A stretch of 64,000 bases of DNA from Luteolibacter ambystomatis. Its GTDB lineage: Bacteria > Verrucomicrobiota > Verrucomicrobiia > Verrucomicrobiales > Akkermansiaceae. Where the stretch lies: the NCBI RefSeq assembly GCF_018137965.1, contig NZ_CP073100.1, positions 4,847,754 through 4,911,753 of the forward strand. Reading direction: 5' to 3'. Numbering within the stretch: position 1 is the first letter of the stretch; each line of letters begins with the position of its first letter. The notes beneath the pieces were generated by a model. That model did not search any database, was not told the origin of the DNA, and saw nothing but the letters and a program-made list of their open reading frames with translations. Of this stretch, positions 16,050 through 32,612 are shown one piece after another. The position numbers and the translations under genes are program-made.

Positions 16050-17486
16050 TCAGACGAGGGGCAGGCTGAACGTGGCGGTGGTGCCTCCCTCTTCGGCAGG
16101 CTCCAGTGTGATCAGCCCCCCGTGCAGCTCTGCGGCCTCCCGGACCAGCGTCAGGCCCAGGCCGGTCCCCTTCCGACCCATCGTATGATGGCGCAGGGAG
16201 TAGAAACGGTCGAAGATCCGTTCCTGGGCATAGTCGGGGATACCGGGGCCGTGATCGCGGATCGTAAGGGAGACCCGATGATCGGAAATGGTGGTGTTGA
16301 TCTTCACCACCGATTCATCGGGCGAGAAGTCGATGGCATTCTCCAGCAGGTTGGTGACCGCGGCGCGCAGGATGAAGGCATCGCCGCGCACGGGAATGGC
16401 TTCTTCCGGAGGCGACCAATCGAGCCGGACACCGGCGAGTTCCGCCAGCGGCTTCGCCTGGTCGATGGCTTGGGCCACCACCTGGTTGAGGTCGAGCGTT
16501 TCGGCGGAATCAAGCCGTACCTTGCTTTCGATGGCGGAGAGTTCCAGCAGGCGGTTGATGAGCCGCTCGGTGCGGGCGGATTCGGCACGGATGTTTTCGA
16601 GGAAGCGATGGCGGGTTTCCGCGGGCATGTCTTCGTCCAGCAGCTCTGCCGCACCACGGATGGCGGCCAGCGGACTTTTCATCTCGTGGGTCAGGGTCTG
16701 GATGTAGTGCTCGACGTAGGCGCGTCCTTCCAGTGCTTCCCTCATCGATTCCAACGCGTGGGACAGGGTATTGACCTCGCGGCCGATGCCGATCTTCGGC
16801 CGCTTCGGGCGCTCGCCGCGTTCGATCGCGCGGGCATACTCCGTGATCTTGCCGATGGGGCGGTAGAGCCAGAGGAATACCACGGTGATCAGAAACAGGG
16901 TGCCGCCGCCGATCAGGATGAAGGCGCGGTAGATCACCTGCTTGCGCTCCTTGATCATCGGGAGCGCGTCGGCCTGGGGCTTGAAAACCGTCAGCACACC
17001 GGAGGGATGCGCGGGATCACCCACCGGAGCGGCCACATAGAGGATCGAGGAGTTGGAGTCGGCCTGATCGTTGCGGCTGCTGCGGGCTCCGTACTCTCCT
17101 CGCAAGGTGAGTGCGACGTCCCGGCGCTTGGAATAGTCCTGACCTTCGCGCTTCCCGCCTTCCGAGTCGAAGATGACCCTGCCCAGGGCATCGGTGAGAT
17201 AGACGTTCGTTCCAACGTTGTGCTTCGTGTGCTCGAAGATGGTTGCGACGAACGTCCGCTCATGCGCGCCATCGAACACCTCGCGGAGGTGGTCGGTGTC
17301 GAGCTTGCCGTGCTCCATTTCATTTTCCACCAGCTCCGCGAGCAGGTGCGCGGAGTCCACCATCACTTCCTCGGTGGCTTGGAACGTCTGGGGCTCGACT
17401 CCGGACAGGAAGTAGGTGGCGAGCTGGTAGAACCCCAGCACCATGATGAAGCCGATGAAGAAGAGGGTGACCCGGGTGAAACGCAC
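16050..17486 (-). CDS. Two-component sensor histidine kinase, CreC-like
   Basis: A 478-residue membrane kinase. The first helix is at ~5-27; a periplasmic sensor region runs to ~185 and includes HNVGTNVYLTDALGRVIFDS; the second helix is at ~188-210. A linker leads to the HisKA domain with His267 in THEMKSPLAAIRG, then an ATPase domain with N-box NLLENAIDFSP, DHGPGIPDYAQERIFDRFYS and GTGLGLTLV. Overall length and the sensor region fit CreC, which in enteric bacteria responds to carbon state. The regulator gene lies 57 bp upstream on the same strand, so the two are cotranscribed. No creD-like gene is nearby. The signal sensed here is unknown. Confidence 0.85.
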   Translation of the reverse strand: MRFTRVTLFFIGFIMVLGFYQLATYFLSGVEPQTFQATEEVMVDSAHLLAELVENEMEHGKLDTDHLREVFDGAHERTFVATIFEHTKHNVGTNVYLTDALGRVIFDSEGGKREGQDYSKRRDVALTLRGEYGARSSRNDQADSNSSILYVAAPVGDPAHPSGVLTVFKPQADALPMIKERKQVIYRAFILIGGGTLFLITVVFLWLYRPIGKITEYARAIERGERPKRPKIGIGREVNTLSHALESMREALEGRAYVEHYIQTLTHEMKSPLAAIRGAAELLDEDMPAETRHRFLENIRAESARTERLINRLLELSAIESKVRLDSAETLDLNQVVAQAIDQAKPLAELAGVRLDWSPPEEAIPVRGDAFILRAAVTNLLENAIDFSPDESVVKINTTISDHRVSLTIRDHGPGIPDYAQERIFDRFYSLRHHTMGRKGTGLGLTLVREAAELHGGLITLEPAEEGGTTATFSLPLV

Positions 17487-17543: not shown

Positions 17544-18254
17544 TCATGCCGTGAAGGAAAGCAGGTAACCGAGGCCGCGGCGGGTTTGGATATAGTCCTC
17601 GGCCCCGATCCGGGCGGCGCGGAGTTTCGAGCGGATGGACTTCACGTGGGCGTCCACGGTACGGTCGGTGACGGCGCCCGGATCTTCCCAGGCACGGTCG
17701 AGGAGTTGGTCGCGGGTGAACACGCGTCCCGGGTGGGAGAGGAGCACCAGCAGCAGCTTGTACTCATGGGCGGTGAGATCGAGCGCCTTGCCGTGGCAGT
17801 GGATGCGCATCGCCGAGGTGTCGTGATGCAGGGCGGTGGCGGGAGCGGCAACCGTGGGCGCGGTGCCGGACGGGGCGGTTGTTTCACCGTTTCCACCGGC
17901 GCGGCGGAGGATCGCCCGGACACGGGCGACGATCTCGCGGGGAGAGAAAGGCTTGGTCACATAGTCGTCCCCGCCGAGTTCCAAGCCGAGGATGCGGTCG
18001 ATTTCCCCGTCGCGCGCGGTCAGGAAGAGGATCGGGACCGTGCTGCTTTCGCGCAATTTCCGGCACACATCGAGGCCGGTGATGTCCGGCAGGCCGATAT
18101 CGAGGATCACGAAGTCGTGCTTTTTTTCCGCGAAGGCATCGAGCGCCTCGCTGCCGGTCAGCGCGTGCGTGACCTCCAGTCGTTCTGTTTCAAGGGCATA
18201 GACGAGAGTGTCGGCGATCGCCGGTTCATCTTCGACAAGGAGGACGCGGGGCAT
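17544..18254 (-). CDS. Response regulator, OmpR/PhoB family, CreB-like
   Basis: A 236-residue regulator. The receiver domain is at residues 1-120 with acidic pocket Glu8/Asp9, phosphorylation site Asp52 in VILDIGLPD, Thr in FLTARDGE and Lys in DYVTKPFSP. After a linker rich in Ala, Thr and Pro (~125-145) comes a winged-helix DNA-binding domain (LDLTAHEYKLLLVLLSHPG to YIQTRRGLGYLL). It precedes the CreC-like kinase gene, its evident partner. Its promoter should lie in the 199-bp divergent gap shared with lpxB, so it might influence that operon, but no operator could be picked out there. Confidence 0.88.
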   Translation of the reverse strand: MPRVLLVEDEPAIADTLVYALETERLEVTHALTGSEALDAFAEKKHDFVILDIGLPDITGLDVCRKLRESSTVPILFLTARDGEIDRILGLELGGDDYVTKPFSPREIVARVRAILRRAGGNGETTAPSGTAPTVAAPATALHHDTSAMRIHCHGKALDLTAHEYKLLLVLLSHPGRVFTRDQLLDRAWEDPGAVTDRTVDAHVKSIRSKLRAARIGAEDYIQTRRGLGYLLSFTA

Positions 18255-18453: not shown

Positions 18454-19650
18454 GTGATGCAGCACTCCATGGGAGCACGTCCGCTGAAAATGTTCCTGTC
18501 CGCCGGTGAGGTGAGCGGCGATTTTCAGGCGGCCCAACTGGCGCGGACGCTCCAGCGCATCCACCCCGGAGTGGAACTCGTCGGCTACGGTGGTGATCAC
18601 ATGCGGTCCGCTGGGGTGGAAATCCGCTGCGACACCGCGGGCTGGGGCTACGTGGGCATTCAGGAATCGCTGCGATTTCTCCCGGAAATGCGCCGCGCCC
18701 GGGCCAAACTGGCGGAACTGCTCAAGACCGAGCGCCCCGATCTGGTGGTGCTGGTCGATGGCGAGGCTTTCAATGAGCGCCTGGTCGCCGTGCTCCAGCG
18801 CGAGCGGATTCCTTTCGTCCACTATTTCGTGCCGCAGGTTTGGTTCTGGGGCCGCTGGCGTGCCCGCCGGATCGCCCGGCAAGCCTCGCTGGTGATCCCA
18901 GCCTTCCCGAAGGAGCTGGAGATTTTCCGCGAATGTGGTGCCCGCGCCGAGTGGTTCGGTCATCCCTTGCTGGATCTGGTCGAGAAGTCGGAAGAACCCT
19001 GCAACGAGGGTGGAGAGGATCGCCGCCCGGTGGCTCTCATGCCGGGCAGCCGGGTGCAGGAGATCGAAAGCCACGCGCCCACTCTCATTGCCTCCGCCAA
19101 ACAACTGCGGAAAAAGAATCCGGGAATGAAATTCCTGCTTCCGGTCGCAGCCCAGCACCTCCGCGCGCCGCTGCTGCGCATGATCGAAGCTGCGGACATG
19201 ACCCACGCCATCGAGCTGCGCCCCGGCTGGTCCGAGCGTGTGGTTTCGAAGTGCCGTCTGGCACTGGTGGCCTCCGGTACCGCCACGCTGGAAACCGCCC
19301 TCGCAGGCGTGCCGATGGTGGCCTTCTACAAGGTCCGCAAGTTGACCTTCTGGGCGGCGAAGCTGCTGGTGAAGAGCCGCTTCGTGGCGATGCCGAACAT
19401 CCTGCTGGACGAGTCCGTGGTGCCGGAACTGCTGCAGGAAAATTTCACCGTCGATTCGATCGTCTCCGAAGCATCCGCCCTGCTGGATGATCCTGCTCGT
19501 GCTGCGGAAATGCGCCGGAATCTGGCCCGCATTCCTGCGGTGTTGGGTGGTCATGGCGCCATCGAGCGCGCGGCGTGGGCGCTGGTGCATCTCACTGCCG
19601 AGCACGAAGCGGTACCCGTGGGCGTGCCCTGCCAACTGAAATCCGCCTGA
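18454..19650 (+). CDS. lpxB: Lipid-A-disaccharide synthase
   Basis: A 398-residue GT19 enzyme. It joins UDP-2,3-diacylglucosamine and 2,3-diacylglucosamine 1-phosphate into the lipid A disaccharide at the inner membrane. Diagnostic segments are FLSAGEVSGDFQAAQLARTL at the start, VLVDGEAFNERLVAVLQ (usually DxPDFN), YFVPQVWFWG, FVGHPLLDLV-like AEWFGHPLLD, VALMPGSRVQEIE, and LVASGTATLETALAGVPMV near the nucleotide site. In-frame ATGs at 18454, 18457, 18469 and 18490 leave the start uncertain; the conserved region begins at the last. It is the first gene of a long operon with acyltransferases and P450s. That is not the usual lpxD-fabZ-lpxA-lpxB neighbourhood, so this copy may be specialised. Confidence 0.9.
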   Translation: MMQHSMGARPLKMFLSAGEVSGDFQAAQLARTLQRIHPGVELVGYGGDHMRSAGVEIRCDTAGWGYVGIQESLRFLPEMRRARAKLAELLKTERPDLVVLVDGEAFNERLVAVLQRERIPFVHYFVPQVWFWGRWRARRIARQASLVIPAFPKELEIFRECGARAEWFGHPLLDLVEKSEEPCNEGGEDRRPVALMPGSRVQEIESHAPTLIASAKQLRKKNPGMKFLLPVAAQHLRAPLLRMIEAADMTHAIELRPGWSERVVSKCRLALVASGTATLETALAGVPMVAFYKVRKLTFWAAKLLVKSRFVAMPNILLDESVVPELLQENFTVDSIVSEASALLDDPARAAEMRRNLARIPAVLGGHGAIERAAWALVHLTAEHEAVPVGVPCQLKSA

Positions 19651-19661
19651 GGAGCCGCGCC

Positions 19662-20606
19662 GTGTCCCGCTCCCGCCGGCTGCTGATAGGAGTCATCACC
19701 GCGTGCCTCATCCAGCTCGCGAGGCTGGTGGTGCGGACCAATTTCTTCCTGGCCCGCTGGCTTCCCGACCGCTGGTTGGCGAGACTCGGCCATCCCGTTG
19801 CCGTTTTCATGCGGCATAGTCACAAGGACAAGATCCTGTCGCGGATGGAGCAGGTGCTGGGGCCGTTCGAGTCGGAGGGTGGGCGGGAGCGCGTTTGGCG
19901 GCTTCATTTGGAACACATCGGCCGCTGCGTGTTCGAGCCGTTCCAGATGTACTGGTCCACCGATGAGGAGCTGGTGGCGAACATCACGATTTCCGGTGAA
20001 GATCTCCTTCAACAAGCTTTGGCGGAGGGAAAGGGCGCGGTGCTGTTCCTCGATCACATGGGGAATCCCGGCTCGTTGGTCGCGGCCTTCGGTCTCCGTG
20101 GCTACGACGTGGCCATCGCGGGCAATCCGGTGATCGCCGTGGAAGACATGGTCGCGCGGTTGTTCAAGCGCGGGCGGGTGGAACGCGTGCTGCTGGGGGA
20201 CCGCATGCCCGCCCGCATGGCGGAGATTCTCAAGCGCAACGGACTCTTCGGCATCTTCATCGATTTTCCGGTGGTGCTGAAACACAATGTCATCCTCCCC
20301 TTCGGCCGGACCGGTGCGAGCGTGAACCTCGGCCCTGGATTGCTGGCTCTGCGGCAGGGATCGCCCGTTTTCAGCGTCACCAGCACACGGACCGGCCCGA
20401 ACCGGCATGAGGTGGTGGTGAAACCCCTTGCCCGGCCCAATCCCGCGCCATTGCGCCCGGCTGCGGCCGAACTGGTGGGAAATGCTTTTGATTCCATGGT
20501 CGAAACCCTCCGCGTTCATCCCGATCAGTGGTGGCCGTGGGACGAGGTTTGTCTTGAAAACCCTCCTGCTTCCTGTCTCTCAAACGAGCAATCCGCCCCG
20601 ATATGA
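19662..20606 (+). CDS. LpxL/HtrB-like lysophospholipid acyltransferase (first of three)
   Basis: A 314-residue membrane-associated acyltransferase of the lipid A late-acyltransferase superfamily. The GTG at 19662 is taken as start, with GGAG at 19651-19654 ahead of it; an earlier frame would overlap lpxB. A hydrophobic N-terminal segment is at ~8-30. The catalytic-type His132 lies in FLDHMGNPG, followed by GIFIDFPVVLKHNVILPFG and the family ending HPDQWWPWDEV. The classic motif has His, four residues, then Asp/Glu; here the acid position is Gly, so the active site is atypical. It lies 11 bp after lpxB and overlaps the first P450 gene by 4 bp. The acyl donor and acceptor are unknown. Confidence 0.8.
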   Translation: MSRSRRLLIGVITACLIQLARLVVRTNFFLARWLPDRWLARLGHPVAVFMRHSHKDKILSRMEQVLGPFESEGGRERVWRLHLEHIGRCVFEPFQMYWSTDEELVANITISGEDLLQQALAEGKGAVLFLDHMGNPGSLVAAFGLRGYDVAIAGNPVIAVEDMVARLFKRGRVERVLLGDRMPARMAEILKRNGLFGIFIDFPVVLKHNVILPFGRTGASVNLGPGLLALRQGSPVFSVTSTRTGPNRHEVVVKPLARPNPAPLRPAAAELVGNAFDSMVETLRVHPDQWWPWDEVCLENPPASCLSNEQSAPI

Positions 20607-21952
20607 GCGCCACCCAGACCCCTGCCCGCACCCCGGGGCCCTCGCGCCTGGACCTTCTGAAGCATTTCTTCCGTTCCGGCTTCCGTTTCGTGGAGGCTCT
20701 CACGGAGGAGGCGGAAAAACACGGTGACACCTTCGTCCTGCCGCTGGAGGTGCCGACCTATATCCTCCGCAATCCGGATGACATCAAACACATCCTCGTC
20801 TCCAACCCGCTGAACTACCACAAGACCGGTGGCCTGACGGTGGGTGAGAAGGTGATCGGCCAAGGACTGGTGAGCAGCGAGGAGCCGTTGCACGGCAAGC
20901 AGCGCCGGACGATGCAGCCGATGTTTCACAAGGCATCGATCTCGAAGTTCACGGAGATGATGCTGGAGTCCACCGCGTCCCACACCCGGGATTGGAAGGA
21001 CGGCGACTCCATCGACATGTCGCTGGAGATGATGCACCTCACCATCACCATCGTGGGGCTGTCGCTCTTCAACGTGGACCTCTATCGCGAAGGCCGCGAG
21101 CTGGGCATGGAATTCAACCGCGCGCTGAATCTGGTCACGCGCATCCAGCTCATGCCTTTCCTGCCGAAGTGGGCGATGGGCTCGCTCCAGCGCAAGCTTG
21201 ACGACAGCATCTCGAAGATCGACGAGGCGATGGCAAAGATCATCTCCGACCGACGCAAGCTGCCGGAAAGCGAGTGGCCTCACGACCTGCTCAGCATGAT
21301 CCTCGCATCCCGCTACGAGGATGGCTCGCCGATGCCGGACAAGCTGGTGCGGGACGAGGTGGTGACCATCATCCTCGCCGGTCATGAGACGGTGGCGAAT
21401 CATCTCAACTGGACGTGGTACCTGCTGGCCCGCCACCCCGAGGTGCATGACAAGCTGCTCAAGGAATGGGACGAGGTGCTGGGAGGTGAAGAACCTTCCA
21501 TGGAGCACATGGGACGCCTGCCCTACACGCTGATGGTGCTGGCGGAATCCATGCGCCTTTATCCACCGGCGTGGACGTTGGCGCGTCGCGTCGTTGCCCC
21601 GGAGAAGCTGCCCAGCGGGCTGGAGCTGAAGGCGGGCGACGAACTACTAATTATGCAGTACGTCTCGCACCGGAATCCGGCGTATTTCCCGGAACCGGAG
21701 AAGTTCATTCCCGAACGCTTCTCGGCGGAGAACAAGGATTCCATCCCGAAGTATGTGTACTATCCCTTCGGGCTCGGGCCGCGCTTTTGCATCGGCGAGG
21801 GTTTCGCCCGTTTGGAAGCGCTGCTGTTGCTGGTGAAGATGGGGCGTCGCTTCCGCTTTGAAATGGCGCGGTCGGGCGAGGTGCGGCCGGAAACCCTGAT
21901 CGCCCTGCGTCCGCGCAAGGGCCTGCCCATGATCGTCCGCAACGCCCGCTGA
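20603..21952 (+). CDS. Cytochrome P450 (first paralogue)
   Basis: A 449-residue P450 with all the core signatures. These are the I-helix oxygen-binding AGHETVAN, the K-helix ExxR in ESMRLYPPAW, PERF, and the heme loop PFGLGPRFCIG with Cys396 as the heme thiolate. There is no N-terminal membrane anchor, so it is probably soluble or peripheral. Overall features recall bacterial fatty-acid or terpenoid hydroxylases. ATGA overlap with the preceding acyltransferase suggests translational coupling. It strongly resembles the second P450 at 23906. No ferredoxin or reductase gene is in the window. A plausible substrate is an acyl chain handled by the neighbouring acyltransferases; this is inference. 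Confidence 0.93.
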   Translation: MSATQTPARTPGPSRLDLLKHFFRSGFRFVEALTEEAEKHGDTFVLPLEVPTYILRNPDDIKHILVSNPLNYHKTGGLTVGEKVIGQGLVSSEEPLHGKQRRTMQPMFHKASISKFTEMMLESTASHTRDWKDGDSIDMSLEMMHLTITIVGLSLFNVDLYREGRELGMEFNRALNLVTRIQLMPFLPKWAMGSLQRKLDDSISKIDEAMAKIISDRRKLPESEWPHDLLSMILASRYEDGSPMPDKLVRDEVVTIILAGHETVANHLNWTWYLLARHPEVHDKLLKEWDEVLGGEEPSMEHMGRLPYTLMVLAESMRLYPPAWTLARRVVAPEKLPSGLELKAGDELLIMQYVSHRNPAYFPEPEKFIPERFSAENKDSIPKYVYYPFGLGPRFCIGEGFARLEALLLLVKMGRRFRFEMARSGEVRPETLIALRPRKGLPMIVRNAR

Positions 21953-21969
21953 CCCCGGTTCGTTTCCGC

Positions 21970-22938
21970 ATGTCGCAGAAGCCTGAAAGCCGGATGCCAG
22001 CAGGGGTGCCGGATCCGCCGTGGCGGATTTCAGCAGCCTGCTGGCTGGTGATCGTGCTGTTTCATCTGCTGCGCTGGATGCCGCGGCGTTGGATGTACGG
22101 GCGGGTCTCGAAGCGGCTCGGTTTGGCCGCCCGCCATCATCTCAAGGAGCGCGTGATGGATCACGTGACCCAGGTGCTCGGTGAATTCGAGTCGGCGGAT
22201 GCGCGGGAAAATTTCTGGGAATCCCATGTCGATCATCTCGGGCGCTGTGTGCTGGAGCCCATCGACCTGAGCTGGATGCCGCGCGCGGAGATGTTGGAGC
22301 GGATCGAAGTCGGTGGTTGTGAAATCCTCGATGAAGTCCGGAGCGAGGGCAGGGGAGCGGTGTTGTTTCTCAACCATCTCGGTAATCCTGCGACGGTCGT
22401 CGGTGCGCTGGGGCCCCGTGGGTATGATCTGGCCATCGCGGGCAATGCGATCAACTACGCGGACTCGAAGGGCATGTACCGCCTTGACCGGTTGGAGAAT
22501 CTCATCCAGCGGATGTTCCGCAGCGTGGATGTGGAGCGCGTGTTGCTCGGTGAGGAACTGCCGGCAAAGATGGCCCGGGTGCTGGCGCGGAACGGTTTCT
22601 TCGGGATGTTCATCGATTTTCCGGTGGAGGAGAAACACAACGTTGCATTGCCTTTTGGCGGACGGCTGATGGACGCGCACATCGGTCCCGCCCTGTTGGC
22701 TTTGCGCCACCGCGTGCCGGTGTTGATGGTGACCTCCCATCGGACGGGTGAAAACCGCCACCGCCTGGAGATCACGCGGGTGCCACTGCCGCCTCCGGAG
22801 CTGCGGTTGCAAAAGGCGGCTGAAGAATTGCTTCGATCCGCGCTGGGCCAGATGTTGAATTCCGTCCGGCAGCATCCCGATCAGTGGTGGCCGTGGGACG
22901 TCGTCCGCCTTTCCCCTTTTCCTTCTTCCGAATCATGA
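21970..22938 (+). CDS. LpxL-like acyltransferase (second of three)
   Basis: A 322-residue paralogue of the enzyme at 19662. They share the N-terminal membrane segment, FLNHLGNPATVVGALGPRGYDLAIAG-type active-site region (catalytic-type His136), GMFIDFPVEEKHNVALPFGG, a run ending TGENRH, and the C-terminal HPDQWWPWDVVRL. The position expected to be Asp/Glu five residues after the His is Ala. It starts 17 bp after the first P450 gene and overlaps the third acyltransferase by 4 bp. The duplication of an acyltransferase-P450 unit in one operon suggests two parallel substrates or successive acylation steps. Confidence 0.8.
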   Translation: MSQKPESRMPAGVPDPPWRISAACWLVIVLFHLLRWMPRRWMYGRVSKRLGLAARHHLKERVMDHVTQVLGEFESADARENFWESHVDHLGRCVLEPIDLSWMPRAEMLERIEVGGCEILDEVRSEGRGAVLFLNHLGNPATVVGALGPRGYDLAIAGNAINYADSKGMYRLDRLENLIQRMFRSVDVERVLLGEELPAKMARVLARNGFFGMFIDFPVEEKHNVALPFGGRLMDAHIGPALLALRHRVPVLMVTSHRTGENRHRLEITRVPLPPPELRLQKAAEELLRSALGQMLNSVRQHPDQWWPWDVVRLSPFPSSES

Positions 22939-23909
22939 CCGAACCCATCAAGCCGAATGGACGCGCCGGCGAGCCAGTGCCCGGCAGGCTTGAGATGGCC
23001 GCACGGCATTTCTTCGGGTGGGTTTACACCTCGACGTTCGCTTGGTTGAGGAGCCTGCCGGATGACCGGGCCATCGTCCGCGCACGGAAGTTCAGCAAGC
23101 TCTTCATTCACGCGGAGGAAGTCTTCGCGCGGCGGAATGTGCCGCTGGCCAATGATCCCGCGCTTGCGGAGGAAATTCATGCGGGCCGCTTCGAGTATCT
23201 GAGCCGCCTCCATGTCCACATCGCCAAGCTGCAAGGAGCGGGTCCGGAAGGTGTGCTCTCGCAGGCGGTGGTTTCGGGAGAAGAACATCTCGTGGAAGCA
23301 TTGGCTCAGGACAAGGGCGTGCTGATGGTTTCCGCACATGCGGGAACGTGGTGGCATGCTCCCGCGGTGGCGGCCTCGCTGGGGCATCCGGTTTCCTCGG
23401 TGCTCACGCAGCATTTGCCGAATGCCATCGTCCGTTATCTGGAACAGGTCGCACGTGAACTCCACTGCGCGCTGACCTTCGTGCGCATGGGAGCTTACGA
23501 AGGGGCGAAGGCCGCCTTCCGTCAGAAAGGCATCTTCTATCTCTCCTTCGACTTCGCCTCGCGCTCCGACCGCAGCATCTGGATGCCGGTGGGGAATCAT
23601 GGCGTGTTTCCGGTGGATACCGGCCCGGGGGTGATGGCGGTGCGTCATCAGGTGCCCGTCGTGTGGGTGGATACCTGGCACGATGAACAAGGGCGGTCCA
23701 ACATCCGCTTCCTGCCCGCGATCCAGGCAGGCAAGGGGACCGGATATTCCGCACCCGGTCTGGTGTTGGAGTATTTCCGGAAGCGCCTCGCCGACCAACT
23801 CTCGCGGAATCCGCAGCAGTGGTGGTTGCTTGGCCACGGTCATTTGAAGGCGCGCTCCGAGATTCCTGCGGATCCCGTGTTTTCCTCCTCCCAATCGCAT
23901 TCCGCATGA
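22935..23909 (+). CDS. LpxL-like acyltransferase (third, divergent)
   Basis: A 324-residue protein related to the other two acyltransferases but clearly divergent. ATG 22935 overlaps the previous stop by 4 bp. The likely active-site His135 is in VSAHAGTWWHAP, followed by FYLSFDFASRSDRSIWMPVGNHGV, and it ends near NPQQWWLLGHGHL. The Asp/Glu five residues after His135 is replaced by Trp. There is no obvious N-terminal transmembrane helix, in contrast to its paralogues. It also overlaps the second P450 by 4 bp. It may be an acyltransferase of altered chemistry, or use a different acid residue. Confidence 0.72.
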   Translation: MTEPIKPNGRAGEPVPGRLEMAARHFFGWVYTSTFAWLRSLPDDRAIVRARKFSKLFIHAEEVFARRNVPLANDPALAEEIHAGRFEYLSRLHVHIAKLQGAGPEGVLSQAVVSGEEHLVEALAQDKGVLMVSAHAGTWWHAPAVAASLGHPVSSVLTQHLPNAIVRYLEQVARELHCALTFVRMGAYEGAKAAFRQKGIFYLSFDFASRSDRSIWMPVGNHGVFPVDTGPGVMAVRHQVPVVWVDTWHDEQGRSNIRFLPAIQAGKGTGYSAPGLVLEYFRKRLADQLSRNPQQWWLLGHGHLKARSEIPADPVFSSSQSHSA

Positions 23910-25252
23910 CCCAGTCCACCCAACGGCGCGCACCCGGACCCGGCATCGCCGCCTTTGTCGGCAATGTCCTCCGGCACAAACTCAACTTCGTCGACTATCT
24001 CGTCGAACTCGCGTCGCGTCATGGCCATCTCTATTCGCTGCCCATGGCGGTGCCGACCTTTGTGATCCGTGATCCAGCGGACGTGAAGCATTTGCTCGTC
24101 AGCAATCCACTGAACTATCACAAGACCGGCAGCTTGACCGTGGGGGAGAAACTGTTGGGCCAGGGGCTCGTCAGCAGCGAGGAACCGCTTCATGGCAAGG
24201 AGCGGAAGATGATGCAGCCGATCTTCCACAAGTCGTCCATCGCCGGATTCGGCGAGATGATGGCCGGCGCGACGGAACGCCACATCGCGAATTGGAAGGA
24301 TGGCGACCACCTCGACATGGCGGAGGAGATGATGCATCTCACCATCTCCATCGTCGGCCTGTCGTTGTTCAGCATCGATCTCTATCACGAAGGCCGTGAA
24401 CTGGGGAACGAGTTCGGGCGTGCGATGAAACTCGTAACCCGTATACAACTGCTGCCGCCGCTGCCGTCATGGATCACCGGCGGTATCCACCGTCGTTACG
24501 ATGAATCCATCGCCATCATCGATGCGGCGATGACGAAGATCATCTCCGATCGCAAGGCACTGCCGCAGGAACAGTGGCCGAACGACCTGCTCTCGATGCT
24601 ATTGTCCGCGCGCTATGAGGATGGCTCCCCGATGCCGGACAAGCTGGTGCGTGATGAGGTGGTGACCATCATCCTCGCCGGTCATGAGACGGTGGCGAAT
24701 CATCTCAACTGGACCTGGCACCTGCTCTCGAAGCATCCCGACGTTCACGGGAAGATGGCCGCTGAATGGAATGAGGTGCTCGGAGACCGGGTGCCCGCCA
24801 TTGAGGATGTCGGTCGCCTCGCCTACACCAGCGCGGTGCTGGCAGAGTCGATGCGCCTCTATCCGCCGGCATGGACGCTGGCGCGGCGGGCGGTGGGCGA
24901 GGACCGTCTGCCATCCGGCATGGAGGTGAAGCCGAAGGACGAGTTCCTGATGCTCCAGTACGTCTCTCATCGTAATCCGGACTGGTTCCCTGACCCGGAA
25001 GCATTCCGGCCGGAGCGCTTCGAAGCCGGGAACAAGGAAGCGATCCCGAAGTTCGCCTACTATCCCTTCGGGATGGGGCCGCGCTATTGTATCGGCGAGG
25101 GCTTCGCCAAGCTGGAGGCGATGATCGCGGTCGTGCTCATCGGCCGCCGCTTCCGCTTTGAGATGGCGCGGAGCGGTCGCGTTGGAAAGGAAACCCTCGT
25201 GACCCTGCGGCCGCGGAAGGGGCTTCCCATGATCGTCCGGAAACGCTCCTGA
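23906..25252 (+). CDS. Cytochrome P450 (second paralogue)
   Basis: A 448-residue P450 closely similar along its whole length to the one at 20603, including NPLNYHKTG, QGLVSSEEPLHGK, AGHETVAN (I-helix), ESMRLYPPAW (ExxR), and the heme loop PFGMGPRYCIG with Cys395. ATG 23906 gives a 4-bp overlap with the preceding gene; the frame continues upstream but lacks a sensible start. One 59-nt stretch is identical to the first P450 gene, including third codon positions. Retention of two full P450s suggests different substrates or positions of oxidation. Redox partners must come from elsewhere in the genome. Confidence 0.93.
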   Translation: MTQSTQRRAPGPGIAAFVGNVLRHKLNFVDYLVELASRHGHLYSLPMAVPTFVIRDPADVKHLLVSNPLNYHKTGSLTVGEKLLGQGLVSSEEPLHGKERKMMQPIFHKSSIAGFGEMMAGATERHIANWKDGDHLDMAEEMMHLTISIVGLSLFSIDLYHEGRELGNEFGRAMKLVTRIQLLPPLPSWITGGIHRRYDESIAIIDAAMTKIISDRKALPQEQWPNDLLSMLLSARYEDGSPMPDKLVRDEVVTIILAGHETVANHLNWTWHLLSKHPDVHGKMAAEWNEVLGDRVPAIEDVGRLAYTSAVLAESMRLYPPAWTLARRAVGEDRLPSGMEVKPKDEFLMLQYVSHRNPDWFPDPEAFRPERFEAGNKEAIPKFAYYPFGMGPRYCIGEGFAKLEAMIAVVLIGRRFRFEMARSGRVGKETLVTLRPRKGLPMIVRKRS

Positions 25253-25261
25253 TAGTGTCCG

Positions 25262-25984
25262 ATGATCCCCCCTCGTCATTTCGTGCCCGAGATCCACGAT
25301 GTCCATCCGGGCATGGAGCGGGAACTCGATCTGCTGCTGAATGCATTCCCGGAAGCCGCGCGTCCGATGGCGATGATGCTGGTGGTGCCGGACTGGTCGG
25401 GAAGCTTTCCGCTCGACCGGCATCCGGGATTCGTCCGGCGGCTGAAGGAATTTCCGGGGCGCAAGGTGCTCCACGGCTACACCCACACGCTGGGGCGGAA
25501 TCTCTTCAACACGCTCTTCTACGGCACCGAAAATCATTCGGAGTTTGCTTCGCTCTCTCCGGCGGTGGCGAAGGAACGCCTTGCGCGGTCGAAGGCGCTT
25601 TTTACGGAAGCCTTTGGTGAGGAGCCTTCGTGGTTCTGCGCTCCCCGGTGGGAGCAGAATGCCGCCGCGCGCGAAGCATTGGGTGAACTGGGCTTCGAGG
25701 GTTTCATGCTGTCCGGGCGCTATGAAACCCTGTCCGGACAAAAGGTGGAAATACCCGCCGTATGTTTCGATGACGGAGACTTGGGATGGCGGCATGCCGT
25801 GAACCGGGCGATCCGCCGTGGTCAATTCCGCCGCTGGCTGGCGGATGGCACCACCTTCCGGCTGACCCTTCATCCCGCCGAATTGTCCGTGCCGGAAACC
25901 TGGCGCCAGGTGACCGACCTGATGAAGACCCTTCAGGACGAGGGCTGGCAGCCGCTTGAATTCAGCGAAACGTGGTTCTCATGA
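25262..25984 (+). CDS. DUF2334-type polysaccharide deacetylase-like protein
   Basis: A 240-residue protein resembling DUF2334, a divergent branch of the NodB/polysaccharide deacetylase fold. Metal- or substrate-binding candidates are VPEIHDVHPG (His-Asp near residues 11-12), VLHGYTHTLG (two His), FCAPRWEQN and LTLHPAEL. There is no signal peptide. It starts 9 bp after the second P450 and overlaps the glycosyltransferase by 4 bp, so it belongs to the lipid operon. A role in removing an acetyl or acyl group from an amino sugar of the glycolipid would fit, but is inferred from fold and context. Confidence 0.75.
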   Translation: MIPPRHFVPEIHDVHPGMERELDLLLNAFPEAARPMAMMLVVPDWSGSFPLDRHPGFVRRLKEFPGRKVLHGYTHTLGRNLFNTLFYGTENHSEFASLSPAVAKERLARSKALFTEAFGEEPSWFCAPRWEQNAAAREALGELGFEGFMLSGRYETLSGQKVEIPAVCFDDGDLGWRHAVNRAIRRGQFRRWLADGTTFRLTLHPAELSVPETWRQVTDLMKTLQDEGWQPLEFSETWFS

Positions 25985-26976
25985 ATGCCGATCCGCGGGT
26001 TTCCATCGTGGTGGCTTCTTATAACGAAGCCGGGAGCATCGCCGCCTGCGTTCGTTCGTTTGCAGCCCAGCGTTGTGATGGAGGTTTCGAGATCATCATC
26101 GTGGATGACCGCAGCACCGACGAAACCGGTGAAATCCTCGCCTCCCTGAATCTCGATCTGCTGCGGGTGATCCGAATTGATCGCTTCGAGCATGCGGTAC
26201 TGACTTCGCGACAGGTGGCGCTCGATACCGGTTTTCGCGAAGCGCGCGGAGAGATCCTGGTGGTCACGGATGCGGATGCGATCGTGCCGGAGGATTGGGT
26301 CGCGGGATTGTGCGCGAGGCTGGATGAAACTAGAGCGGACTTGGTTGGCGGTCCTGTGCGCTTTGCCGCCCGGTCGGACGGGGGCAACCGGTCGAACGCG
26401 CTCATGCAGACGGTGGACGGAATGTTTTACATCGGCGTCTGTTCGGTGCTCAACCGGCTTGGATTCAACTCGGGCTTCGTCTTCGGCAACTGCGCGTTCC
26501 GGAAGGACGCCTACTTCAAGATCGGCGGCTATGAGGCGATGGGCTTCGGGCTGACCGAGGATCTGGTGTTCGGGAGAGCGTTGAGAAAAGCCGGTGGTCG
26601 TATCGCGTTCGTGGCACAGCCAGCGGTTTCCGTCCGGGCTTGTAGCTCCTGGCGGGTGCTGCTGGATCGTGCCCAGCGTATCAGTGCGGGCGGCTGTTCC
26701 GCGCTGTCGGTATTGCTGGGAGTCTGGATGCTGCTGTGGGTGATCACCGCCGTGGGCGCGATGATTGCGCCCGCATGGTTTTTGATCCCGTTTGTCATCC
26801 GCTGGCTGGCGGGGGCCGCATTTGTCGCCTGGTGGCTGGCGCGCGGCGGTTTGTGGAGATTGCTTCCCGCGGCGTTGATCTTTGAACCGGCGGCGATCCT
26901 GACCGGCCTCGCGGTGATGTGGCGCGGACGGAGGGTGAAACGGGTCGAGTGGGGCGGCCTGACCTACGACCGCTGA
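25981..26976 (+). CDS. Membrane-associated family 2 glycosyltransferase
   Basis: A 331-residue GT2 enzyme with a GT-A fold: VSIVVASYNEAGSI at the start, IIIVDDRSTDET, the metal-binding VVTDADAIVPEDW, and FGNCAFRKDAYFKIGG and GLTEDLVFGRAL in the acceptor region. Two or three hydrophobic helices near the C-terminus (~240-315) would anchor it in the inner membrane. The ATGA junction couples it to the DUF2334 gene and it closes the lpxB operon. Its stop lies inside the 3' end of the convergent GT32-type gene (13-bp overlap). It probably adds a sugar to the lipid made by the operon; donor and acceptor are unknown. Confidence 0.85.
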   Translation: MNADPRVSIVVASYNEAGSIAACVRSFAAQRCDGGFEIIIVDDRSTDETGEILASLNLDLLRVIRIDRFEHAVLTSRQVALDTGFREARGEILVVTDADAIVPEDWVAGLCARLDETRADLVGGPVRFAARSDGGNRSNALMQTVDGMFYIGVCSVLNRLGFNSGFVFGNCAFRKDAYFKIGGYEAMGFGLTEDLVFGRALRKAGGRIAFVAQPAVSVRACSSWRVLLDRAQRISAGGCSALSVLLGVWMLLWVITAVGAMIAPAWFLIPFVIRWLAGAAFVAWWLARGGLWRLLPAALIFEPAAILTGLAVMWRGRRVKRVEWGGLTYDR

Positions 26977-27845
26977 TGCTTCGGCTTGCTGGAGCCGGCA
27001 TGGATTTTCCGCCACATGAAGCTGGGACGGTGGATCCAGTGTTTCCAAGTGCCGGCGAAGCGATGATAGACGTGCCCTCCGCTGAAGGCCTTTTTCCGGA
27101 GCAAGCGCAGGCCGTGTGAAACCACCGCGTCCTTGTCCATCACCTCCTGGAAGCTGTGGCCGCCTTTCTCCACGAATTCGATCAACGCATTCGTGAACAC
27201 CACCGGGCCGGTGCGTGACAGGGTGGCATAGCGGTCCGATCCCTTCACATTCAGGATGCTGGCGGCCACGTGTTGGAGTACGAGTGCGAGGAACGGATGC
27301 CGTGCCTCCGCGGCGAAGGTCCATTGGCAGTACTGCGTGGGATGATCGCAGCGGAAGCGCTCGAATCCGACCAGCGCCCGGTCCTCCTCCCGGATCCAGT
27401 GATCGCAGGGCTCCAGGCATGCGGTGTCCGCATCGGTGTAGAGACCTCCGCGGGTGTAGATGGTGACGTAGCGCCACAGGTCGGTTTTCTCCACCTGCTT
27501 GTCGAGGCGGTGATAGAGATCCACGATGTCGATCCCGAGATCATCCAGCACGCCTTGGCGCTCGCTTTCGAAGAGCTCCTCGCAGTCCCGGTCGTCGAAG
27601 AGATGGAACCGGTAGCCGGGATTCATGCTCTGCCAGCCGTCGAGATACTCGCGCATCCACTTCGGCCACGTTTCCGGGGCTTTGTTTTTCCAGGTTACGT
27701 AAATGTCGCGCGGGATCACGGGGCGGATTGGAGTATGGCGAGGTTCCGCGGCGTGCGCAGGCCCGTCAAGGGTTGAGCAAGGAACCGGCGGGATGAATTT
27801 TGCAACTTTTTCCACACCGGCTGTTTCATGTGCGAACGGAAGCAT
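26964..27845 (-). CDS. GT32-like glycosyltransferase with DXD motif
   Basis: A 293-residue protein of the Gly_transf_sug/OCH1-like family. Signatures are IPRDIYVTWKNKAPETWP, KTDLWRYVTIYTRGGLYTDADTACLEP with the DAD (DXD) metal site, and the C-terminal HRFAGTWKHWIHR. There is no signal peptide. The ATG at 27845 gives about 40 residues before the conserved region, so a later start is possible. The gene is convergent with the lpxB operon and overlaps its last codons by 13 bp. Shared theme, not operon structure, suggests it also works on the surface glycoconjugate. Confidence 0.82.
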   Translation of the reverse strand: MLPFAHETAGVEKVAKFIPPVPCSTLDGPAHAAEPRHTPIRPVIPRDIYVTWKNKAPETWPKWMREYLDGWQSMNPGYRFHLFDDRDCEELFESERQGVLDDLGIDIVDLYHRLDKQVEKTDLWRYVTIYTRGGLYTDADTACLEPCDHWIREEDRALVGFERFRCDHPTQYCQWTFAAEARHPFLALVLQHVAASILNVKGSDRYATLSRTGPVVFTNALIEFVEKGGHSFQEVMDKDAVVSHGLRLLRKKAFSGGHVYHRFAGTWKHWIHRPSFMWRKIHAGSSKPKHQRS

Positions 27846-28790: not shown

Positions 28791-31700
28791 ATGAAACTCA
28801 AGAAACGAGCTTTGTTTGTGGCCCTTGGCCTGATTCTCCCTGCTTCCGCATCCACCTACAACTGGCAGGTCGCCGGAACCAACGACAACTGGAGCACCGG
28901 TGGTGTGGATGCCAACTGGTTTGTCGATGCGGGCACTGTTCTCTCTCCATGGGTGGATGCGAATGACGCCGTCTTCAGCGCCGCCACCGGTGAGACCGTC
29001 GCATTGAACGGCACCGTGGCACCTACTACGACCACCGTAGGATCTTCCAACGGAAGCTGGACCTTCAGCGGCACCGGCGTGCTCGGCGGCACCGGCACGC
29101 TCGTCAAGAATGGCACCGGCACGCTGACACTGGCGAACACCACCGTGAACACCTACAGTGGCGGCACGACGATCAGCGGCGGTACGCTTTCGATCGGCAC
29201 CGGCGGCACCGGTGCGGCCACGTCCACCGTCGGCGCGCTCGGCACGGGCGCGGTGGCGATCAACGGTGGCGCCACGCTGAAATTGTGGATCAAGAACGAC
29301 AACGCTGCGACCGCTCCCTGGACCTTTGCCAATGCCATCAACATCGACGGTGGCAACATCCTGAACGAGGACGGCATCAGCACGGTTTCCGGTGCGGTCA
29401 CGGTCGGGGCTTCCGGCGCGACCTTCCGCAGCAAGTGGAATGGCAAGGCGCTCAAGCTTTCCGGCGTCATCTCCGGTGCCGGCGCGGTGACCGCCGCTCG
29501 TGCTGCGGATGGCGGCGGTGAGGCGGGAGCCACCGTGATTCTTTCCGGCGCGAGCACCTATTCCGGCGGCACCACCGTCGCTTCCGGGACTCTCCAACTG
29601 GGTGACAATGCCGCCACCGACTATGGTGGCACGGGCCGCATCGTCGGCACCCTCACGGCGAACACCGGCACCACGGTGATACTCGCGGGCAGCAACGTCT
29701 TCGGCTACAACACCGGCGCCAAGGTCAATGCGGTCAACCTCAACGGCGCCACGCTCAACCACACCGGCAGCGCCGACAATGGCTGGGGGGTCGCCTACAC
29801 GCTTACCGGCGCGACCATGCAGACCACCGTCGCGGGAGGCAGGTTCTCCTTCGGCAACAACACTTCGGTCACCACCGTGGCCTCCGCGAACGCTTCGACC
29901 ATCTCGGGGCAGATCAATTTCCGGGAGAACAACACCGGCAACACGGTGCCCTTCAATGTGGACGATGGCGCTGCTGCCACCGATCTGCTCGTGAATGCGA
30001 ATATCCAGGGCGGAGCGGTTGGTCTGACCAAGTCCGGCACCGGCACCATGGTGTTGAACGGCGCGAATACTTTCACCGGTCCGTCAACGATCAATGCAGG
30101 CTCGCTGGTGCTCGGATCCGGGGGTTCGCTGGCATCTTCCGCGGTTACGGTGAATACCGGAGCCGGGTTCCAGGTGGCCGCCACGGGGAAAACGCTTCCG
30201 GCGCTGACCGCCAATGGCACCACCACCCTTGGTCTTGCCGCGCGGACAGCCGCGACCACGACGGTGACGGGCGCCGTGACTTTCGGAGCGGGAGCCGCCA
30301 CGACGGTCAACGTGCTGCCCTTGAACGTTCTCCAGGTCGGCCAGGTATATGACCTCGTCACTGCGGGGAGCATCACAGGTTCCTCCACTTTCACCACCGC
30401 GCTGCCGGCTGGTTCCCGCGCCGCCGGTACCACCGCCATCAACGGCAACAAGATCCAATTCACGGTCACAGCGGGCACGGGCAATCTGGTCTGGAACGAC
30501 GCAGCCGCCACCGGCGTGTGGGATCTGAACACCACGGCAAACTTCAACAACGGTGGCTCGAACGACGTGTTCAAGGTCTCCGATGCCGTTACGTTCGATG
30601 ACACCATCGGAGCAGGCACCCGGAACATCACGTTGACCGGGGCTCTCTCGCCCGCCCAGGTCACGGTCAACAATTCCTCCGGCGACTATACCCTGGCGGG
30701 TGCCGGCAGCCTCACTGGCGGCGGAGCTCTCGTGAAGAGCGGCTCATCGAAGCTCACCCTCGGCTCGGCGGTCTATGGCCTGACCGGTGCGGTTACGGCA
30801 GGTGGTACCGGCACGTTTGACCTCGGAGCCAAGACGATCACGCCCTCCTCGCTCACGCTTTCCGGTGCGACTCTCGCCAATGGCACCGTTTCCAGCGCGA
30901 GTGTCGATGTGCAGTCGGGCACGTCCACCGCGGTGATCTCCGGCTCCGGTACGCTTGCGAAGACAACGGGCGGAACGGTGACGCTGAATGCCGCGAACAC
31001 CTACACCGGCGGCACCACCGTCTCGGGCGGCACATTGGTGGCCGCGACCGGAAACGCTTTGGGAACCGGTACCGCCACGATCAACGCGGGAGGCACGCTC
31101 GATCTGGATGTCGGCTACGGGCTCTCCAATACGATGACCGTCAATGGCGGCACGGTGGCGATCAAGCGGGGCACGACTTTCACGGTGGATGCACCCACGC
31201 TCGTATTCGCGGGCACCGGTGGCACGGTGACTTCCTACGCCGGAACGGGTGACACCGCGACCCTCCAGGGCTTCGATGTCAACAGCACCGATATCCAGGT
31301 GAACACCGCGTCCACCGGCACCATCGACTCCAGCGTCGTGATTTCCACCCGCACCTATGGCTTCCGCTTCGATGTCAATGGTACGGGCAATCTTGTGGTG
31401 GCCGGTCCCATTACGGGAACCGGAGCCGCGGCAGGTGCAGTGGAGGCCGGCACCATGATCGGCACGGACAGCACGGCGATTTGGAAGCGCGGCTCGGGCA
31501 ACCTCACCCTGACGGGTGCGAGCACGTTCACGGCGGGCACGAGCGTGCCCATGACCAGCATCCAGGATGGCTCCCTCACCCTTTCGGGGGGGAGCAACCG
31601 TTTGCCGGTGAACTCCGCGGTTTATCTGGGCAACACCGCCAACACGAGCGGCAAGCTCATCCTGAACGGCGTCGACCAGACCATCACGGGTCTTGCGAAG

Positions 31701-32612
31701 ATCGGCACGGGAACCGCTTCCGCCGTTGTCGGCGCCTCCGCGGCGACCTCCACTCTCACGGTCAACAACACCAACGACTACGTCTTTTCGGGCAGCATCG
31801 GTGGAGCGACTCCGACCGAGAAAAACATCGCCATCGTGAAGAGCGGCACCGGCAAGCTCACGCTGTCCGGCACCAACACCTACTCGGGCGATACCACCGT
31901 CAGCGGTGGCATTCTCTCGCTGGGTGCGCCCTCGCTCGGCGATGCATCGAACCTGCGGGTCAGCGATGGCTCGGTCCTGGACCTCAATTTCTCCGGCACC
32001 GATACCGTCGGCAAATTGTATATCAATGGTCTCGAAACCACCGCGGGCACCTGGGGAACCAGCCTGTCCGGCGCCACGAACAAGGATGACATCCACTTCA
32101 CGGGCACCGGCGTGCTGAATGTGACCGGGCTCGCGGCCGCCGCCTATGACAACTGGGCAACCCTCAAGGGGCTGGACTCCGGTAACAACGGCAAGACCCA
32201 GGACCCGGACAATGACGGTGTGAACAACTTCGAGGAGTTCGCCTTCGATGGCGATCCGAAGTCCGGTGTCTCCGACGGCAAGACCGTGGTGAAGGTGGCA
32301 ACGGTCAACGGGCAGTCCGTTCTGACTTTGACGATGCCGATCCGCACCAACGCGGTGTTCCCCGGTCCGGTCAACCCGGGTGAACTGGTTTCGGCGAGTG
32401 TGGATGGTGTCATCTATCACATCCAGGCCGGATCGAATCTTGTGACCTTCCCGTTCGGAGTGGATCAGGTGTTAGGGTCCGATGTGACAAGCGGATTGCC
32501 AGCGAACCTGCCGCCGCTCACCTCGGGCTGGAGCTATCGCTCGTTCTATGTGCCGGGTTCCGATCCGGCGGGCAATCCGCGTATTTTCATGCGCGCGAAG
32601 GTCAACGAATGA
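28791..32612 (+). CDS. Autotransporter-associated beta-strand (PATR) repeat surface protein
   Basis: A 1273-residue exported protein. The signal peptide is ~residues 1-21 (MKLKKRALF to ASAS). Most of the chain is a Gly/Thr/Ser-rich right-handed beta-helix with PATR repeats such as NTYSGGTTISGGTLSIG, STYSGGTTVASGTLQLG, NTYTGGTTVSGGTLVA and NTYSGDTTVSGGILSLG. Near residue 1115 a calcium-loop-like segment DPDNDGVNNFEEFAFDGDP begins a ~150-residue C-terminal domain common in verrucomicrobial secreted proteins, ending FMRAKVNE. No autotransporter barrel is present, so export uses another route. It is probably an adhesin or extracellular fibre. The many internal repeats are coding and not a mobile element. 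Confidence 0.88.
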   Translation: MKLKKRALFVALGLILPASASTYNWQVAGTNDNWSTGGVDANWFVDAGTVLSPWVDANDAVFSAATGETVALNGTVAPTTTTVGSSNGSWTFSGTGVLGGTGTLVKNGTGTLTLANTTVNTYSGGTTISGGTLSIGTGGTGAATSTVGALGTGAVAINGGATLKLWIKNDNAATAPWTFANAINIDGGNILNEDGISTVSGAVTVGASGATFRSKWNGKALKLSGVISGAGAVTAARAADGGGEAGATVILSGASTYSGGTTVASGTLQLGDNAATDYGGTGRIVGTLTANTGTTVILAGSNVFGYNTGAKVNAVNLNGATLNHTGSADNGWGVAYTLTGATMQTTVAGGRFSFGNNTSVTTVASANASTISGQINFRENNTGNTVPFNVDDGAAATDLLVNANIQGGAVGLTKSGTGTMVLNGANTFTGPSTINAGSLVLGSGGSLASSAVTVNTGAGFQVAATGKTLPALTANGTTTLGLAARTAATTTVTGAVTFGAGAATTVNVLPLNVLQVGQVYDLVTAGSITGSSTFTTALPAGSRAAGTTAINGNKIQFTVTAGTGNLVWNDAAATGVWDLNTTANFNNGGSNDVFKVSDAVTFDDTIGAGTRNITLTGALSPAQVTVNNSSGDYTLAGAGSLTGGGALVKSGSSKLTLGSAVYGLTGAVTAGGTGTFDLGAKTITPSSLTLSGATLANGTVSSASVDVQSGTSTAVISGSGTLAKTTGGTVTLNAANTYTGGTTVSGGTLVAATGNALGTGTATINAGGTLDLDVGYGLSNTMTVNGGTVAIKRGTTFTVDAPTLVFAGTGGTVTSYAGTGDTATLQGFDVNSTDIQVNTASTGTIDSSVVISTRTYGFRFDVNGTGNLVVAGPITGTGAAAGAVEAGTMIGTDSTAIWKRGSGNLTLTGASTFTAGTSVPMTSIQDGSLTLSGGSNRLPVNSAVYLGNTANTSGKLILNGVDQTITGLAKIGTGTASAVVGASAATSTLTVNNTNDYVFSGSIGGATPTEKNIAIVKSGTGKLTLSGTNTYSGDTTVSGGILSLGAPSLGDASNLRVSDGSVLDLNFSGTDTVGKLYINGLETTAGTWGTSLSGATNKDDIHFTGTGVLNVTGLAAAAYDNWATLKGLDSGNNGKTQDPDNDGVNNFEEFAFDGDPKSGVSDGKTVVKVATVNGQSVLTLTMPIRTNAVFPGPVNPGELVSASVDGVIYHIQAGSNLVTFPFGVDQVLGSDVTSGLPANLPPLTSGWSYRSFYVPGSDPAGNPRIFMRAKVNE

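Follow-up and report, generated by a model that had tools for sequence, protein, structure and literature searches.

Few bacterial lipids have been studied as thoroughly as lipid A, and a compact operon of Luteolibacter ambystomatis, in which an lpxB gene is packed together with acyltransferase and cytochrome P450 genes, raises the question of what such a set of enzymes would make. The operon lies on the plus strand (18457-26976) of the window, the 64,000-nt stretch of contig NZ_CP073100.1 that was analysed. Open reading frames, Pfam and NCBIfam agree with an earlier sequence-only reading on its eight genes, their families and their order: lpxB, acyltransferase (AT), P450, AT, AT, P450, DUF2334 deacetylase and GT2 (Table 1). 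The junction spacings, from 5' to 3', are 11, -4, 17, -4, -4, 9 and -4 nt; 4-base overlaps are thus found at four of the seven junctions (AT1/P450a, AT2/AT3, AT3/P450b and DUF2334/GT2), just enough for the overlaps "at most junctions" of that reading. The first gene, lpxB2, starts at ATG 18457, with a GTG at 18454 as a possible alternative. None of the eight genes encodes a redox partner, an acyl carrier or an exporter, and the operon has no paralogue of LpxK or of a Kdo transferase. The reading that we favour, with a probability of roughly 0.55, is that the operon encodes a specialised and paralogous branch of the lipid A-type pathway, the product of which would be an acylated glucosamine lipid, a variant lipid A, with P450-oxidised chains.

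Table 1. Genes of the operon and its flanks, in window positions.
Feature	Position	Strand	Evidence
CreC-like sensor histidine kinase of the two-component system	16050..17486	-	NF008312 533 bits, cut-off 356
OmpR-type response regulator, divergent, upstream of the operon	17544..18254	-	PF00072 + PF00486
lpxB2, lipid-A-disaccharide-synthase paralogue, 397 aa	18457..19650	+	PF02684 266.7 bits; TIGR00215 252.3 bits
AT1, LpxL/PatA-superfamily acyltransferase, 314 aa, GTG start	19662..20606	+	PF03279 45.2 bits
P450a, 449 aa, soluble	20603..21952	+	PF00067 256 bits; FGLGPRFCIG, ESMR, AGHET intact
AT2, LpxL/PatA-fold acyltransferase, 322 aa	21970..22938	+	PF03279 57.1 bits; AlphaFold2 + Foldseek
AT3, divergent LpxL/PatA-fold acyltransferase, 324 aa	22935..23909	+	PF03279 30.2 bits; AlphaFold2 + Foldseek
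P450b, 448 aa, soluble	23906..25252	+	PF00067 236.6 bits; FGMGPRYCIG, ESMR, AGHET intact
DUF2334 / NodB-type polysaccharide deacetylase, 240 aa, HGYTH motif	25262..25984	+	PF10096 53.7 bits
GT2 glycosyltransferase, 331 aa, C-terminal membrane segments, DAD + ED motifs	25981..26976	+	PF00535 89.2 bits
DXD sugar transferase, convergent, downstream	26964..27845	-	PF04488 48.2 bits

All eight genes recur, in unchanged order and at 70-89% identity, in the congener G252. Between it and the window, dN/dS is 0.07-0.28 across the eight genes, figures that are approximate because dS is 0.7-1.3, and these values indicate that purifying selection acts on all of them. Scanning named genomes with an AT1/AT2 alignment returned nine loci, seven of which carry a four-gene form, lpxB2-AT-AT3-P450, in MAGs of Verrucomicrobiaceae, Akkermansiaceae, Verrucomicrobiales and Pedosphaera. 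Two of these seven (G173 and G108) were also recovered independently by the order search. The core lpxB2-AT-AT3-P450 is present in nine genomes in total, two of them with the full eight-gene form. Since the congener keeps eight genes and a further seven genomes keep the four of the core, the arrangement is more than chance; the expectation that gene order would be conserved outside this genome was borne out, and one co-evolving operon is supported. The unit is rare within the order. Its P450 type occurs in 4 of the 289 sampled genomes of the order and, among 388 genomes sampled across the phylum, in the window's genome alone. We conclude that the operon is real, conserved and under selection, and apparently undescribed.

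At one locus (L033) the contig begins at the AT gene, and lpxB2 lies on another contig of that genome. The AT alignment also gave weak matches in 17 other genomes across the phylum (92-119 bits); these matches were dropped, most being about equally close to canonical LpxL, and neither lpxB2 nor a P450 was present in the ten neighbourhoods inspected among them. The two scanned loci without a P450 belong to a gammaproteobacterial MAG, which has lpxB2-AT only, and to a Sumerlaeota MAG. In the former (L040:8581-10861), lpxB2 and AT are nested with the Pedosphaera copies in both trees, which probably reflects transfer from one phylum to another, or else a misbinned contig.

The host genome is a single contig of 5.32 Mb with two lpxB genes; the sequence-only reading had suggested looking for a second copy, and it is present at 334342 of this complete genome. 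One lpxC and one lpxK were found, both away from the operon. Three of the four PF03279 acyltransferases are AT1-AT3, while the fourth has the classical HMGNWE motif, adjoins a PF06258 gene and glycosyltransferase-like genes, and is likely the canonical LpxL. Both P450 genes of the genome are inside the operon. With its separate lpxB, its single lpxC and lpxK elsewhere and its classical LpxL, the host thus has a standard pathway to which the operon is added. A separate canonical lpxB was found in all nine operon genomes, and lpxC and lpxK are each single-copy in all seven that were tested for them; precursors can thus be shared between the branches. These observations support the view that the operon is paralogous to the canonical lipid A genes and does not replace them. 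One four-gene carrier, G173 (L058, L069), has three lpxB genes, and the two outside the operon branch at separate places in the LpxB tree.

LpxB2 passes the TIGR00215 equivalog (252.3 bits, cut-off 190.25), and E. coli LpxB aligns with it across 337 residues. Forty-four positions are common to LpxB2 and the canonical LpxB of the same genomes, including D101, N106, PGSR 196-199, E202 and N314. The operonic proteins have a 100/100 clade to themselves in the LpxB tree, apart from canonical LpxB, with eight nearly fixed differences, among them A to G64, P to E103, G to W134 and F to W166. Such clade-specific changes make another substrate possible and count against the lipid A branch. An LpxB2 with a changed substrate could instead make a separate storage, surfactant or signalling glycolipid, acylated, P450-oxidised and, in the long version, glucosamine-decorated, that never enters LPS. 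The deep LpxB2 clade with its fixed differences, the lack of an LpxK or Kdo-transferase paralogue in the operon, ATs as similar to the mycobacterial glycolipid enzyme PatA as to LpxM, and a rare, patchy distribution like that of a specialised metabolite pathway would all fit this alternative. However, LpxB2 exceeds the equivalog cut-off for lipid-A-disaccharide synthase and keeps the shared residues, and the Sumerlaeota LpxB2 shares its locus with an exporter of MsbA type and a protein resembling ArnT. We consider a lipid outside LPS unlikely, albeit the most serious competitor. In the Sumerlaeota MAG (L041:805-7382), an LpxL-like protein, LpxB2 (read as two ORFs, 1894-2944), an ABC exporter with the domain layout of MsbA, an AT1/2-like protein and an ArnT-like protein of the PMT family are encoded in a row, which has the look of a lipid A locus that uses the LpxB2 type of enzyme. 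We counted this row for the lipid A branch, as we did the core in nine genomes, the separate canonical lpxB with single lpxC and lpxK, the LpxB model match and shared residues, the LpxM/PatA folds, the invariant AT His and Asp aligned with the PatA relay, the apparent paired AT-P450 duplication and the selection.

The sequence-only reading described three LpxL-like acyltransferases, and as far as the superfamily is concerned this holds. All three exceed the PF03279 cut-off of 22.3 bits (45.2, 57.1 and 30.2), and the predicted structures of AT2 and AT3 (AlphaFold2 pLDDT 88.5 and 80.8) match only LpxM and PatA at E <1e-3 in Foldseek searches of the PDB. They are not, however, straightforward LpxL enzymes, because the acid of the HX4D/E motif is absent in every operonic homologue aligned (the window's three read HLGNPA, HMGNPG and HAGTWW) and none reaches an NCBIfam LpxL equivalog or subfamily cut-off, the best lipid A model giving 41.9 vs 273 bits (AT2). 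It could be argued that these homologues are catalytically dead and that the operon does no more than modulate lipid A synthesis by the canonical enzymes, for instance as a scaffold or regulator; E127A of Acinetobacter LpxM, the equivalent of the missing acid, is a catalytic-residue substitution according to its PDB description. Yet a His (AT2 H136, AT3 H135), aligned with PatA H126, is invariant, and so is an Asp (AT2 D216, AT3 D206), aligned with PatA E200 in a remote alignment that is not proof. The PatA relay is H126-E200, and the E200A mutant is inactive while D131A retains 37% activity (PMC4792965). Acyl transfer without the HX4 acid is therefore plausible, and the operonic ATs may well be active through a PatA-type His-Asp pair. 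Given also the purifying selection on all genes, we regard dead ATs as very improbable. The likeness to PatA, a mycobacterial phosphatidylinositol mannoside acyltransferase, extends to the fold and the His-acid relay (H126/E200 and AT2 H136/D216), but identity to the operonic ATs is ~15-18%, PatA keeps an acidic residue at HX4D, and its lipid context is different.

Both P450s have an intact haem Cys motif, ExxR and I-helix AGxET, and no membrane anchor (PF00067, motif reading). Their best NCBIfam models are terpene oxygenases, and their solved relatives, the best of which is 7wzl, include carotenoid and cholesterol hydroxylases and also, not as the best, the fatty-acid CYP102. With relatives so mixed, the sequence gives no pointer to fatty acids, and it is gene context alone that suggests the substrate. 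We counted the terpene-oxygenase models and the carotenoid and cholesterol relatives against the lipid A branch, along with two squalene/phytoene-synthase family genes in the host genome. The P450s might instead act on an isoprenoid (carotenoid or hopanoid), LpxB2 and GT2 being sugar transferases and the product an acylated, glycosylated and oxidised isoprenoid. The carotenoid hydroxylases are among the top solved relatives, GT2 is weakly similar to HpnB and HpnI, and squalene/phytoene-synthase family (PF00494) genes occur in all eight operon genomes tested, a presence that is not specific since these were operon carriers only. The HpnI and HpnB scores are far under cut-off, however, no recognised isoprenoid gene was found in or beside the operon at the loci read, and the core always has an LpxB and two LpxL-superfamily enzymes. 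We regard an isoprenoid product as improbable.

The P450s track the acyltransferases. AT1 and AT2 are 45% identical, P450a and P450b 66%, and each four-gene locus has one AT1/2-type AT and one P450. The P450 tree unites P450a and P450b inside the lineage of the window's genus (91/91); the AT1/AT2 fork lacks resolution, which we counted against the lipid A branch together with the missing redox partner, acyl carrier and exporter. The simplest reading of the sequences would be that an AT-P450 pair was duplicated within the genus. The association of P450s with acyltransferases, apparently even through duplication, is supported, and this apparent duplication would tie P450 function to acyl transfer. 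To our knowledge, the known hydroxylations of lipid A chains are carried out by non-haem enzymes; LpxO and similar lipid A hydroxylases are iron/oxoglutarate dioxygenases. The operon P450s would likewise hydroxylate lipid A acyl chains, but they are haem enzymes encoded with their own lpxB and acyltransferases. The open-access literature yielded no relevant publication on a P450 with lipid A, LpxB or LpxL, in line with the remark in the sequence-only reading that P450s are not known to be part of any described lipid A pathway. Other verrucomicrobial P450s, at 30-41% identity, were set aside, as they adjoin unrelated genes or a protein of sulfotransferase type and have no lpxB beside them. For example, four Verrucomicrobiales contigs (L029, L030, L031 and L032; P450 at ~7.2-8.9 kb) have a different P450, 30-36% identical, adjoining a conserved 373-379 aa protein, which in L030 is a PF13469 sulfotransferase. 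This is a second conserved P450 pair, unrelated to the operon.

The full set of eight genes read from sequence is present in the window and G252, but DUF2334 and GT2 are lineage-specific and outside the conserved core. As a general partner of the operon, DUF2334 was rejected: a single genome among the 240 sampled in the order has it, as does G252, outside the sample's hits. Its best NCBIfam model is NF053788, N-acetylglucosaminyl-phosphatidylglycerol deacetylase (68.2 bits, below the cut-off of 280), and it has an HxxxH motif in the form HGYTH. GT2 has hydrophobic windows at 234, 254 and 294. A membrane GT2 with an adjoining DUF2334 makes it a reasonable inference, by analogy, that an amino sugar would be added and then deacetylated. 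HpnI and HpnK, the hopanoid glucosamine pair, likewise combine a membrane GT2 with a deacetylase, but GT2 scores 48.3 against an HpnI cut-off of 310, its HpnB score is likewise far under cut-off, and no hopanoid gene was recognised alongside the operon. The closest described logic is that of gpgSDF, the Pseudomonas aeruginosa system for a glucosaminyl-phosphatidylglycerol, with a GT4 synthase, a deacetylase and a flippase (PMC12713373). There too a sugar transferase adjoins a deacetylase; GpgS, however, is a GT4 and the operon enzyme a GT2, the operon has no flippase gene, and the NF053788 score is far under cut-off.

Each of the five operon carriers seen in the genus has the two-component system next to lpxB2. 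However, 34 of 61 genomes in the genus encode this system, most of them without the operon, and it was therefore dropped as an integral part of the pathway and kept only as a candidate regulator. No sigma-70-like promoter was found, a result of little weight in this phylum. The convergent DXD sugar transferase is a possible, uncertain ninth member; in the congener (L025:5982-6788) a protein at the same place has a closely matching N-terminal sequence. Further downstream, on the plus strand at 28791-32612, the window encodes a 1273-aa repeat-rich, autotransporter-like protein, and a 2340-aa ORF of similar look is found elsewhere in the host genome (L024:10797-17819).

The analysis shows gene content, conservation, paralogy, selection, folds and motifs, and from these we infer a scheme in which the chemistry of each step, the disaccharide product, the substrate of the P450s, regulation and any export are putative. 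LpxA, LpxC, LpxD and a UDP-diacylglucosamine hydrolase, encoded elsewhere and shared, would supply acylated glucosamine precursors, two of which LpxB2 would couple into a disaccharide. AT1, AT2 and AT3 would add further acyl chains by the PatA-like His-Asp relay, and each P450 would hydroxylate or otherwise oxidise the chain handled by its neighbouring acyltransferase, either while it is acyl-ACP or once it is part of the lipid at the inner membrane. Where all eight genes are present, GT2 would add an N-acetylated amino sugar that DUF2334 would deacetylate, giving a more cationic lipid. The divergent CreBC-like two-component system may regulate the operon. Like the Raetz pathway (LpxA/C/D/H/B/K, WaaA, LpxL/M), this branch has an LpxB by the curated model and acyltransferases of the LpxL/LpxM superfamily and fold; it differs in its second lpxB besides the canonical one, in ATs without the HX4D/E acid, and in the added P450s, deacetylase and GT2. 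More tentatively, and with somewhat less than even odds, the operon could be a second lipid A assembly line for P450-oxidised chains, where each P450 is paired with one non-classical AT, the pair duplicates as a unit, and a distinct oxidised, glucosamine-decorated outer-membrane lipid is made beside ordinary lipid A.

No earlier description of P450s combined with an lpxB-acyltransferase unit was found in the open-access literature. The four-gene form is small enough for cloning and testing, and the operonic ATs, as members of the LpxL superfamily without the HX4D/E acid, allow the PatA-type relay to be tested directly in enzymes that are not mycobacterial. If the lipid A branch is true, it would show that bacteria can maintain, next to a full and separate lipid A pathway, a second branch devoted to a specialised lipid A.
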